This document shows positions 266-4,413 of a DNA stretch of 64,000 bases, piece by piece. The DNA comes from Terriglobia bacterium. GTDB taxonomy: Bacteria; Acidobacteriota; Terriglobia; JAIQFV01. The translations under genes and the position numbers were made by a program. Within the stretch, counting starts at the first letter, position 1. The number at the start of each line of letters is the position of its first letter. Below the pieces are notes generated by a model. The model saw only the letters and a program-made list of their open reading frames with translations. It made no database searches and was not told the origin of the DNA. The DNA is taken from contig JAIQFV010000006.1 in NCBI GenBank assembly GCA_020073085.1, positions 186,001 to 250,000 of the forward strand, read 5' to 3'.

Positions 266-785
266 GGTTAGGGTCAAAGTGGTCCTAATTCCGGTCACCA
301 TGGTAACACCGGGGGCGCACGGATTTTTGATTTTCTTGCAGAGAGGACGGCAGCACTTGTGCACAACGAGAATGAGGAGCCGTGGTAGCCGGGATGAATT
401 GCTTTTTGATTCATCCCGGGATCGCGGTTTCCAAAACTTGATTGCCACACAATTCTTTTTTATGAAACAGTGCATCGCAGACTTGCAATACACAATCCTT
501 CAGATCATCAAAAAACCAGAAGTGGCACGGAGAACCAATGGCGCCTTCCGGAGGTCCCAGCGAGCTGGCGAAGCCTGAAATCAAGCAGTTCGCGGCATTT
601 TTCCTTGCCAATCCGGGGGTATCAAAGTAGAATTCGACCGGCTTGGGCTCCCTTTCGAGGATTAGCTCCATAATTGAGGTGTGTCGGCGGTCGGACAACC
701 CCTGAGGGAGAAACCTAATCAGATTGGATTCACCGGAGGATTAATGCCGGGATTCAATACTGTGGACGATGTTTGAGGTGAATGA
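266..785. other. Intergenic region between divergent rnr and the radical SAM gene
   Basis: This 520-base stretch separates the divergent starts at 265 (minus) and 786 (plus) and must hold both promoters. It contains a perfect hairpin at 389-419. A 95-residue reading frame on the minus strand (411-698) starts only with TTG, has no ribosome binding site and shows no family signature, so it is not called as a gene. Confidence 0.6.
389..419. other. Perfect 11-bp stem hairpin
   Basis: CCGGGATGAAT (389-399) pairs perfectly with ATTCATCCCGG (409-419) around a 9-base loop. Neither strand has a T-run after the stem, so a Rho-independent terminator is unlikely. It could be a leader structure of the rnr transcript or a protein-binding site. 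Confidence 0.5.
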
Positions 786-2804
786 ATGTACAGTGATGGC
801 GTACTTCCTGAACAAACAGGTCCCCGGGGGCGACTGGGTTCCATGCGTGGTTCCGCTCTCCTTTCCGGTTTAGCGAACGTCGCTTGGAAGACCTTTCAGG
901 CGTTCAACCGGATGTTTCCTGAAGGAGAGCAGATTTCACCGAAATGGGCGCCGGGAAAATTATTAAAAAGTTATGAACGCACCGCCCCAACGCTGGGTGT
1001 TCCGAGGCAGACCGATTCACTCTGTCCGAAATGCGTGAAGGAAGTGCGCGACGCGGTGATGACCGGGCAAAAGGATTTGTCCGAGTTCTACGGCAAGCAT
1101 TCCGGCGAAATCAAGGCGGACATTGTTGAAGTGGAGGGCAAGGTCCTGATGCGGAAGACCTGCCCGAAGCATGGGGATATTGAAGACATCCTTTCGACCG
1201 ATGTGGAGTGGACCAAGCGCATTGAATCGCTCTTCTTCGGCCGCGACTTCCGCTGTAGCGATGACACTGATGTTCATAAGCATGGAACTTCCACGATCAA
1301 ATTCGGGCGAGGGGCCGTCCTCACGGTCGATCTGACCAACCGATGCAACATGATGTGCAATCCCTGCTTCATGGATGCCAACCAGGTAGGTTATGTCCAC
1401 GAACCCGATTGGGAGGACGTCAAAGGGATTCTGGATCGCGCGGTGTCTTTTAAACCCAAACGGCAGTCCATCATCTTATTCTCCGGCGGCGAACCCACCG
1501 TTGCCTCGACGTTCCTGAAGGCAGTGGCTTATGCCAAGGAAGTTGGATTTTATCGCATCCTGGCGGCCACGAATGGGATTCGTTTCGCTCAGGATCCGGA
1601 ATTCACGCGCCAGGCGCACGAAGCGGGGTTGCATGGGGCTTATCTGCAGTTCGACGGGGTGGGTGAAGATGTGAACGCCCACCGCGGCGTGGGCAACCTG
1701 TTCGATGTCAAGCTCCAAGCCATCGAGAATATGGCCAAGGTCGGCATGAAGACCACCCTGGTGACCACGATCCTGAATGGGGTCAATAATCATCGGATCG
1801 GGAAGATCGTGGAGTTTGCCTTGCAGAATATCGATAAGGTCCAGACCATTGCATTTCAACCCGTCTCTTTCACCGGCCGCGATGAAGACATCGACGACCG
1901 GCGACGCAAGGCGCAGCGCTACACGCTTTCTGAGATGTGCGATGACTTGAAGGTACAGCTGGGACCCGATCTTCAGCCGATGCGCGATTGGTTCCCCCTC
2001 TCTTCTTATTCTGCGTTCACGTCCGTGATGGACATGCTGGCCGGTGCCGATGCGCCGTGGGGTTGGAGTGCGTGCAATTGTCATCCCAATTGCGGCATCT
2101 TCACGCTCATCATGGTGAATCGCGCGACCGGGGAATGGTGCCCCATCTACAAGTTCTTCAACTACGAACAGTTCATCAAGGATGTCGCGGTCATCACCGA
2201 TAGCGCGCGGGGGAAAACCCTCACTACGGCGCAGTTGGCGATGGCCATCATGCGGAATTATGATGCCAAACAGGCCCCCCGGAATTTTCCCATCGGCCAG
2301 TTGGTTTCACTCTTTAAACCCGCCTCTGAAACCGCCAACAGCGACCGCAACGACCGCATGAAGACGCGTTCGGAGAAGGACGAATGGCGCGTGTTGTGCG
2401 TGGAGGGGATGTGGTTCCAGGATCTCTTCACCTACGATTTCCGCCGGACCGAAATGTGTGTCATCCCCTATGGAACCCAGGAAGGCGAGATCTCCTTCTG
2501 CGCGTACAACACCGGAGTCGGCTGGCGTCAGCTCATCGAAAGCATGCGTATGACGGCGACCACGGCAGAGTGGTATAAAAATTTCGGACGCCACAAGGTT
2601 TATGCGGCGGGGAAGCCAGTCGAGTTGCCGACGACGGAACACCACCTCAGCCTGCCGGTGTTCAGCGAATCGACGGGATCACCGGGCCCGTCCCCGGATG
2701 TCCGCCTGGAAGACCTTGACTTCGGCGGCGGCGCCATGCACGGTGGGGCGGCGCGCCCTCATGAACCGTCGAAGGAGGAGCAGTTCCTCTCAACTGGCAA
2801 GTAA
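786..2804 (+). CDS. Tes-like radical SAM protein (tetraether/membrane-spanning lipid synthase family)
   Basis: This 672-residue radical SAM enzyme has its cluster motif CNMMCNPC at C187, C191 and C194, which ligate the 4Fe-4S cluster that cleaves SAM. In front lies a metal-knuckle pattern, CPKC at 80-83 and CPKH at 126-129. This N-terminal zinc-type motif plus the TDLTNRCN-like start of the radical domain is the architecture of archaeal tetraether synthase (Tes/GDGT-MAS) and its bacterial homologues, which join lipid tails carbon to carbon. A further Cys-rich stretch (CNCHPNCG, about 433-440) could bind auxiliary clusters. The start has a GAGGTG ribosome binding site. A strong terminator follows, so the gene is probably monocistronic. 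That it makes membrane-spanning lipids is inference from family and host phylum; another radical SAM substrate is possible. Confidence 0.75.
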   Translation: MYSDGVLPEQTGPRGRLGSMRGSALLSGLANVAWKTFQAFNRMFPEGEQISPKWAPGKLLKSYERTAPTLGVPRQTDSLCPKCVKEVRDAVMTGQKDLSEFYGKHSGEIKADIVEVEGKVLMRKTCPKHGDIEDILSTDVEWTKRIESLFFGRDFRCSDDTDVHKHGTSTIKFGRGAVLTVDLTNRCNMMCNPCFMDANQVGYVHEPDWEDVKGILDRAVSFKPKRQSIILFSGGEPTVASTFLKAVAYAKEVGFYRILAATNGIRFAQDPEFTRQAHEAGLHGAYLQFDGVGEDVNAHRGVGNLFDVKLQAIENMAKVGMKTTLVTTILNGVNNHRIGKIVEFALQNIDKVQTIAFQPVSFTGRDEDIDDRRRKAQRYTLSEMCDDLKVQLGPDLQPMRDWFPLSSYSAFTSVMDMLAGADAPWGWSACNCHPNCGIFTLIMVNRATGEWCPIYKFFNYEQFIKDVAVITDSARGKTLTTAQLAMAIMRNYDAKQAPRNFPIGQLVSLFKPASETANSDRNDRMKTRSEKDEWRVLCVEGMWFQDLFTYDFRRTEMCVIPYGTQEGEISFCAYNTGVGWRQLIESMRMTATTAEWYKNFGRHKVYAAGKPVELPTTEHHLSLPVFSESTGSPGPSPDVRLEDLDFGGGAMHGGAARPHEPSKEEQFLSTGK

Positions 2805-3252: not shown

Positions 3253-4413
3253 ATGAATTATTTCTTGAACGAGCAACAACAGACCATCAAGGAACTCTGC
3301 CACAAGATCGGCGTTGAAAAAATCAAGCCGGTGCGGGCGGAGTACGATGAGAGTGGAAAATTCCCCTGGGACATTGTCAAGGTGCTGGGAGAAACCGACA
3401 TCTGCGGTGTGTACATCCCTGAGGCCTTTGGCGGTTTGGGTGGCGGCATCATGGAAATGGTCATCGCCACCGAAGAGTTGTCCCGCTTTTGCGGCGGTAT
3501 TGCACTCGCCTTTGCGGCGACCGGCCTGGGGACATTTCCCATCCTGCTTTTCGGGACCGAAGAGCAGAAGAAGAAGTATCTGCCCGACATTGCTTCCGGG
3601 AAGAAACTGGCGGCCTTTGCCTTGACCGAATCGAGCGCGGGAAGTGACGCGGGAGCCATTCGAGCCACTGCAACGAGGGACGGCGATCACTATAAATTGA
3701 ATGGAACGAAGCAGTGGATCACCAACGGCGGAGAAGCGGAGACTTACACGGTGATTGCGTTGACCGACAAGTCGAAGGGCGCCCGCGGGGCCACCGCCTT
3801 TGTTGTGGAAAAGGGGACCGACGGCTTCTCCTTCGGAAAGAAGGAAAACAAGATGGGGATCCGTGCCTCGGCAACGCGGGAGCTGGTTTTCGAGGACTGC
3901 AAGGTCCATAAAAGCCAGATGCTCGGGCGCGAGGGGATGGGTTTCATCGTGGCCATGAAGACCTTCGATATTACCCGTCCCGGCGTGGCTTCCCAGGCGG
4001 TGGGAATTGCCCAGGGCGCTTTGGACGAGGCGCTTTGCTATTCGCGCGAACGGCATCAGTTCGGCAAGCCCATCTCGTCGTTCCAGGCCATCCAGTTCAT
4101 GCTGGCCGATATGGCCATGAAGATTGAAGCCGCCCGCGCCCTGGTGTATTGCACCGCGCGCATGATCGATGCGGGCGAGACGAAGGTCTCCAAGGAGAGC
4201 GCCATGTGCAAGACACTGGCCTCCGATGTCGCCATGGAGGTCACCACGAATGCGGTTCAGATCCTCGGCGGCTATGGTTACATGAAGGACTACCCCGTGG
4301 AAAAGATGATGCGCGATGCGAAGATCACTCAGATCTACGAAGGCACCAACCAGATCCAGCGTCTGGTCATCGCCAGTAACTTGATCAAAGAGGCCGCCGC
4401 CGGGCTGGCATAG
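3253..4413 (+). CDS. Acyl-CoA dehydrogenase
   Basis: This is a full-length 386-residue flavoprotein of the acyl-CoA dehydrogenase family, which oxidises acyl-CoA to the 2-enoyl-CoA and passes electrons to ETF. The FAD/substrate motifs LTESSAGSDAGA (about 126-137) and QWITNGGEAE (about 154-163) are present. The catalytic base is Glu363 in the motif IYEGTNQIQR. Size and motifs fit short- or medium-chain enzymes (butyryl-CoA type), but chain length cannot be read from sequence by eye. The ATG has a TGGAGAAATCAA leader with GGAG. No ETF or thiolase gene is adjacent, so it is not part of a complete beta-oxidation operon here. Confidence 0.93.
   Translation: MNYFLNEQQQTIKELCHKIGVEKIKPVRAEYDESGKFPWDIVKVLGETDICGVYIPEAFGGLGGGIMEMVIATEELSRFCGGIALAFAATGLGTFPILLFGTEEQKKKYLPDIASGKKLAAFALTESSAGSDAGAIRATATRDGDHYKLNGTKQWITNGGEAETYTVIALTDKSKGARGATAFVVEKGTDGFSFGKKENKMGIRASATRELVFEDCKVHKSQMLGREGMGFIVAMKTFDITRPGVASQAVGIAQGALDEALCYSRERHQFGKPISSFQAIQFMLADMAMKIEAARALVYCTARMIDAGETKVSKESAMCKTLASDVAMEVTTNAVQILGGYGYMKDYPVEKMMRDAKITQIYEGTNQIQRLVIASNLIKEAAAGLA

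Follow-up and report, generated by a model that had tools for sequence, protein, structure and literature searches.

A Tes-like radical SAM gene of Terriglobia: an A-type paralogue in the acidobacterial branch of the tetraether synthase family and its possible link to iso-diabolic acid

The locus and its Tes-like gene

The stretch of DNA analysed here (the window) comprises 64,000 nucleotides on contig C6 of a Terriglobia genome of 5.79 Mb that is 98.7% complete (G000) and is most closely related to Terriglobia MAGs (96% identity). Near its first bases lies a gene for an A-type Tes-like radical SAM protein, whose open reading frame starts with the ATG at 786 and stops at 2804. The first-pass annotation had placed the start at 684, which is wrong since stops interrupt the frame between 684 and 785 (DDV*GE*M). 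Met1 of the corrected protein is kept in at least 90% of aligned homologues, and a second MAG, the nearest one, encodes a protein that is 96% identical with a dN/dS of 0.032. The window protein is thus real and strongly constrained. The features of the gene, all on the forward strand, are as follows.

605..633, + strand: promoter-like TTGCCA-17-TAGAAT, 5' of the Tes-like gene (consensus match only)
786..2804, + strand: A-type Tes-like radical SAM protein (P0001), 672 aa (ORF; 7TOL phmmer; NF045702 score; dN/dS)
837..908, + strand: N-terminal amphipathic helix, residues 18-41, kept in A/B proteins and absent from M. jannaschii Tes (AF2 helix)
1023..1034, + strand: CPKC, residues 80-83 (C80, C83 = C9, C12 of 7TOL), first half of the rubredoxin-type Fe site (alignments; invariant)
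1161..1172, + strand: CPKH, residues 126-129 (C126, H129 = C33, H36 of 7TOL), second half of the rubredoxin-type Fe site (alignments; invariant)
1275..1292, + strand: HKHGTS, residues 164-169, in place of the N-terminal [4Fe-4S] ligands CxxxCxxCxxH (alignments)
1344..1367, + strand: CNMMCNPC, residues 187-194 (C187, C191, C194 = C98/C102/C105 of 7TOL), radical SAM cluster (PF04055; alignment)
2073..2093, + strand: CNCHPNC (C430, C432, C436), in which C436 = C338, a C-terminal [4Fe-4S] ligand (alignments)
2406..2423, + strand: GMWFQD, in which M542 = the labile cluster ligand Met439 (alignments; PMC9433317)
2454..2474, + strand: MCVIPYG, in which C558 = the ligand C455 and Y562 = Tyr459 (alignments)
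2496..2513, + strand: FCAYNT, in which C572 = the ligand C470 (alignments)

Promoter-like sites of this kind number five in the stretch, against 1.6 expected in shuffles. An RNase R-like gene (named from its sequence) lies upstream, arranged back to back with the Tes-like gene, and an acyl-CoA dehydrogenase-like gene (3253-4413) follows on the same strand, 448 bases downstream. No operon is evident around the window gene. Visual inspection suggested a terminator-like hairpin at about 2831-2868, but the scan did not report it and it is not claimed. Similarly, when the open reading frames around 80 related loci were clustered, the idea of a conserved lipid-gene operon was dropped, as no tightly linked partner of A-type genes emerged. 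Genes that by eye resemble lpxD/lpxB/lptD are found some kb off in some Pyrinomonadaceae, a linkage too loose to be of use.

Likeness to archaeal Tes and the metal ligand sets

Among all solved structures, the only strong sequence match of the window protein is to the M. jannaschii GDGT-MAS/Tes (7TOL/7TOM). The alignment to 7TOL is nearly end to end (phmmer E=1.4e-65, residues 109-596), so that the homology to archaeal Tes proposed in the first-pass annotation is borne out far beyond chance. The AlphaFold2 model, with a mean pLDDT of only 74.5 and a pTM of 0.82, is predicted to share the overall 7TOL fold; Foldseek ranks 7TOL and 7TOM first (E=7.7e-30, TM 0.80 on the target), 22 orders of magnitude ahead of the runner-up MoaA (E=3.6e-7). 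Of the NCBIfam models, that for Tes (NF045702) fits best at 311.7 bits, below its equivalog cut-off of 450, while the TrsS model NF045646 reaches 209.7 bits against a cut-off of 490 and other radical SAM models also give sub-cutoff matches. As such, the window protein is not an orthologue of Tes.

The ligand assignments for 7TOL were taken from PMC9433317, and the numbering was checked by confirming that the reconstructed 7TOL sequence has Met at position 439 and Tyr at 459. The CPKC and CPKH knuckles and the radical SAM motif, on which the earlier identification had leaned, are present, with Pfam Zn_ribbon_HMPTM matching the N-terminal part at 50 bits (cut-off 27) and Radical_SAM (PF04055) at 70 bits. 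In all 18 A proteins aligned, the rubredoxin, SAM and C-terminal cluster ligands, Met439, Tyr459 and the SAM-contact residues are kept, and the 29 B proteins retain the full ligand set except for one with H36 changed to G.

The N-terminal [4Fe-4S] ligands, by contrast, are missing in 47/47 A/B proteins and present in 11/11 canonical Tes copies. In the HKHGTS region, C73, C77, C80 and H83 of 7TOL are lost: the window protein has D/H/S/K at the C73/C77/C80/His positions, across the A/B set His invariably replaces C77 and Ser replaces C80, and H166 and S169 are invariant in the clade. The alignment to the active site of Tes that had been called for thus upholds the catalytic ligands of the lipid site and not those of the N-terminal cluster, which is predicted from the alignments to be absent from A/B proteins. 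Moreover, the CxC within CNCHPNC is an extra pair typical of the A/B clade, nearly all members of which have CxC before C338. The hydrophobic moment of the N-terminal helix averages 0.53 in the family (the 95th percentile of background is 0.47), and this helix could serve as a membrane-surface anchor.

Paralogues, phylogeny and distribution

The source genome carries three Tes-family genes. The window gene is the A-type; a B-type on contig C2 encodes a 53% identical paralogue (694 aa, 324 bits), and a C-type, or canonical, gene on contig C13 encodes 551 aa and scores 589.4 bits, above the Tes cut-off of 450. This canonical gene (C13:69428-70897; L086:9404-11059) adjoins a SPASM-type radical SAM gene (L086:7652-9292), and an acyl-CoA dehydrogenase-like gene also lies near it (L086:12321-14237). 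The same genome holds two DUF2229 (Ger/PlsA-like) genes, at C4:192121-192777 and C16:60660-61355 (1073 and 1213 aa), for the putative ester-to-ether step; together with the canonical Tes they make it a candidate brGDGT producer.

A and B proteins form one clade with a support of 100 in two trees, and in both this clade joins the Tes side, beside intermediate-type acidobacterial sequences and away from TrsS-like proteins. A-types are a single group (support 100), and the sequences given the B label on their score split between two positions. The trees have a long A/B stem and one archaeal sequence only, and are compatible with the clade being either nested in bacterial Tes or its sister. The intermediate-type sequences nearest the clade (L120, L122, L124 and L126; families f49 and f4) score above the Tes cut-off, and those checked have the N-terminal cluster ligands. 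A placement in a non-lipid radical SAM clade, named at the outset as the outcome that would sink a Tes-like identity, was not found. That identity holds in so far as the protein lies on the Tes side with the catalytic ligands, but not as an archaeal-type Tes, given the sub-cut-off score, the lost cluster ligands and the separate canonical copy.

Genes of the A/B clade occur in 141 of 298 genomes of the phylum (E<=1e-150). The A-type is patchy, being found in 24 of these 298, and 17 of the 24 also have a B-type. Of the 299 Terriglobia genomes, 293 carry some member of the Tes family; the canonical form is present in just 31, and the A/B clade is dominant in the class. Genomes with no Tes gene at all also occur (f22 and others). 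Some Terriglobia have a B-type and a canonical gene as near neighbours, no more than about 1-8 kb apart (L139 in G066, L144 in G108 and G240:C7:11931-15820). A/B-clade genes were also seen in MAGs labelled Planctomycetota, KSB1, Calditrichota, Gemmatimonadota, Latescibacterota and Acidimicrobiia (L060, L066, L076-L079, L083, L008), through either inter-phylum transfer or mis-binning. A supposed selenocysteine in A-type genes of family f27 ('1 TGA') was discarded, the TGA being an ordinary stop near the C-terminus.

A proposed role in iso-diabolic acid synthesis

In many soil Acidobacteriota at least a quarter of the fatty acids is iso-diabolic acid, from which brGDGTs, the climate proxies used to reconstruct past temperature and pH, are presumed to be built. 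The acid is formed by the tail-to-tail join of two iso-C15 chains (PMC13274423). Edaphobacter paludis JP48T, described as aerobic in growth, has 25% of its fatty acids as iso-diabolic acid, and its genome (G204) has one Tes-family gene, a B-type, with canonical Tes absent. For Chloracidobacterium, the genus description lists iso-diabolic acid among the primary fatty acids; C. validum BV2-C (G086) has one B-type and two TrsS-like genes, and no canonical Tes. Pyrinomonas methylaliphatogenes K22, with more than 40% ether and membrane-spanning lipids, carries one A and one B, again with canonical Tes absent, and is the only lipid-typed A carrier. This link between gene and lipid is drawn from three strains, all of them producers, and genomes that share ancestry do not count as independent; the three may also carry Mss or elb genes. 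The phenotype evidence concerns the B-type and would extend to the A-type by paralogy, so that the window gene's own role, as against that of its B-type sister, is the weakest point of the case. Furthermore, Zeng et al. reported a single Tes homologue of 32% identity in E. aggregans and homologues of 40-42% in Solibacter and Koribacter; the former would fit the B-type and the latter the C-type.

Canonical Tes appears to follow another set of genes. DUF2229 was used as a stand-in for the ether-forming Ger/PlsA, although other CoA-activase proteins carry it too. Among Terriglobia it occurs in 28 of 31 genomes with canonical Tes and in 73 of 268 without (Fisher p=7e-12, a value inflated by shared ancestry), and its high-scoring subfamily in 21 of 31 against 3 of 268 (shared ancestry again inflating p). 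E. paludis, C. validum and K22 have no DUF2229 (Ger/PlsA-like) genes, compared with two in the window's genome. Since canonical Tes tracks DUF2229, which these A/B-only producers lack, canonical Tes is suggested to belong to the ether (brGDGT) branch and the A/B clade to work without it.

On this basis, the A/B family is the best-supported candidate for the iso-diabolic acid enzyme of these bacteria, and we give slightly better than even chances to an A/B-clade gene joining iso-C15 acyl tails of membrane phospholipids into ester-bound iso-diabolic acid. The joined atoms would be the terminal methyl carbons of two iso-C15 acyl tails, giving 13,16-dimethyl octacosanedioic acid, and this join would be the same kind of chemistry as Tes coupling. 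If the clade works as Tes does, cleavage of SAM would yield a 5'-deoxyadenosyl radical that takes hydrogen off one tail end; this first tail would be parked on the C-terminal [4Fe-4S] cluster as a C-S bond, and a second SAM would activate the second tail for the attack that forms the sp3-sp3 bond. The retained ligands of A/B proteins appear compatible with these steps. With the N-terminal [4Fe-4S] cluster predicted absent, electrons would have to get to the active site by another route. As the clade occurs in aerobes, losing this surface cluster may, speculatively, reflect oxygen sensitivity. For the window protein the analysis itself gives the predicted fold, the ligand set, the clade and its distribution, and we infer the substrate, product, lipid orientation and reaction. 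The membrane-spanning-lipid role suggested by the first-pass annotation thereby gains genotype and phenotype support for the clade, most directly for the B-type, and the data favour ester-bound iso-diabolic acid over tetraethers as such.

The lost cluster and the extra CxC could also signal altered chemistry. The clade might carry out another radical reaction of lipid tails on the same scaffold, such as a mid-chain GMGT-like bridge or the coupling of tails of other length, with iso-diabolic acid made by a different enzyme; the long A/B stem and the changes at both clusters favour this, and two paralogues in one cell suggest different substrates. We nevertheless consider it unlikely, as E. paludis reaches its 25% iso-diabolic acid with one Tes-family gene and the mapped SAM and C-terminal cluster ligands flanking the lipid pocket are kept. 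A non-lipid substrate (peptide, cofactor or other), as in radical SAM families with related N-terminal parts, would suit the scores that TrsS (209.7 bits) and other radical SAM models give below their cut-offs, and the failure to find a conserved lipid-gene operon around A-type genes; MJ0619 itself was once named a methanopterin methylase. However, the window protein keeps the C-terminal lipid-side domain, whose ligands are lost in TrsS-like D sequences (C338, M439, C455, Y459 and C470 are changed or gapped in two or more of the three aligned), and the tree puts the A/B clade on the Tes side, which makes such a substrate distinctly improbable.

The remaining alternative, that the window protein is a plain canonical bacterial Tes turning diethers into brGDGT tetraethers, follows a proposal made for the Tes homologues of Acidobacteriota collectively (PMC8941075, PMC10087280). 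It is very doubtful here: the protein has 312 bits against a cut-off of 450, its genome also encodes a canonical copy of 589 bits, and DUF2229 genes follow canonical Tes and are missing from the A/B-only E. paludis, K22 and C. validum. Both the presence of Tes homologues in Acidobacteriota and a possible part for them in brGDGT synthesis had already been described in these papers, the general idea having appeared in 2022; the later PMC11868695 states that the activity of acidobacterial homologues has not been confirmed. In the openly searchable literature, no paper was found that separates the A/B clade from canonical Tes, or that describes its missing N-terminal cluster or an iso-diabolic link. 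Nor did the literature searched name a demonstrated iso-diabolic acid enzyme for Acidobacteriota, Mss and Ger having been found in other bacteria.

Coupling of iso-C15 tails by the A/B clade would also imply a wider division of labour. The A/B clade may supply the iso-diabolic acid synthase so far missing from Acidobacteriota, as a Tes derivative of aerobes that has lost the surface N-terminal cluster and makes ester-bound membrane-spanning lipids, while canonical Tes and Ger/PlsA-like enzymes make brGDGTs; this fuller picture is tentative and falls somewhat short of an even chance. In the source genome, the canonical Tes on contig C13 and the Ger/PlsA-like enzymes would then serve the ether-lipid (brGDGT) branch. 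The analysis predicts that the ester and ether branches depend on different genes, and it narrows the search for the iso-diabolic enzyme to one gene in the cultured E. paludis. If true, any survey in which all bacterial Tes homologues are taken as tetraether genes would conflate two enzymes.

Compared with known systems, Mss of T. maritima and other bacteria shares the proposed product class of the A/B clade, namely (iso-)diabolic acid membrane-spanning lipids. With the Tes model as query, T. maritima gave no match at E<=1e-50, against about 1e-93 for the A/B clade, which argues against a close relation of Mss to the Tes family and thus for a more distant one. TrsS-like radical SAM (seleno)proteins (NF045646) are related to the window protein in their N-terminal and radical SAM parts; those checked keep the N-terminal cluster ligands and have lost Met439, Tyr459 and most C-terminal cluster ligands. 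Several Acidobacteriota have such TrsS-like Tes relatives without the full C-terminal cluster site (L150, L151, L152). The canonical acidobacterial Tes of the source genome belongs to the same superfamily as the window protein, with lipid-tail coupling as its most likely role; unlike A/B proteins, canonical copies keep the N-terminal cluster ligands, score above the cut-off and co-occur with Ger/PlsA-like genes. Finally, MJ0619 Tes/GDGT-MAS (7TOL/7TOM; NF045702), at 31.5% identity, shares with the window protein the domain order, the predicted fold, the rubredoxin-type Cys3His Fe site, the SAM cluster, the C-terminal [4Fe-4S] ligands C338/C455/C470, Met439 and Tyr459. In contrast to MJ0619, the window protein lacks C73/C77/C80/H83, so that an N-terminal [4Fe-4S] cluster is not expected, scores under the family cut-off, and has an extra CxC before C338, an N-terminal amphipathic helix and a longer C-terminus.
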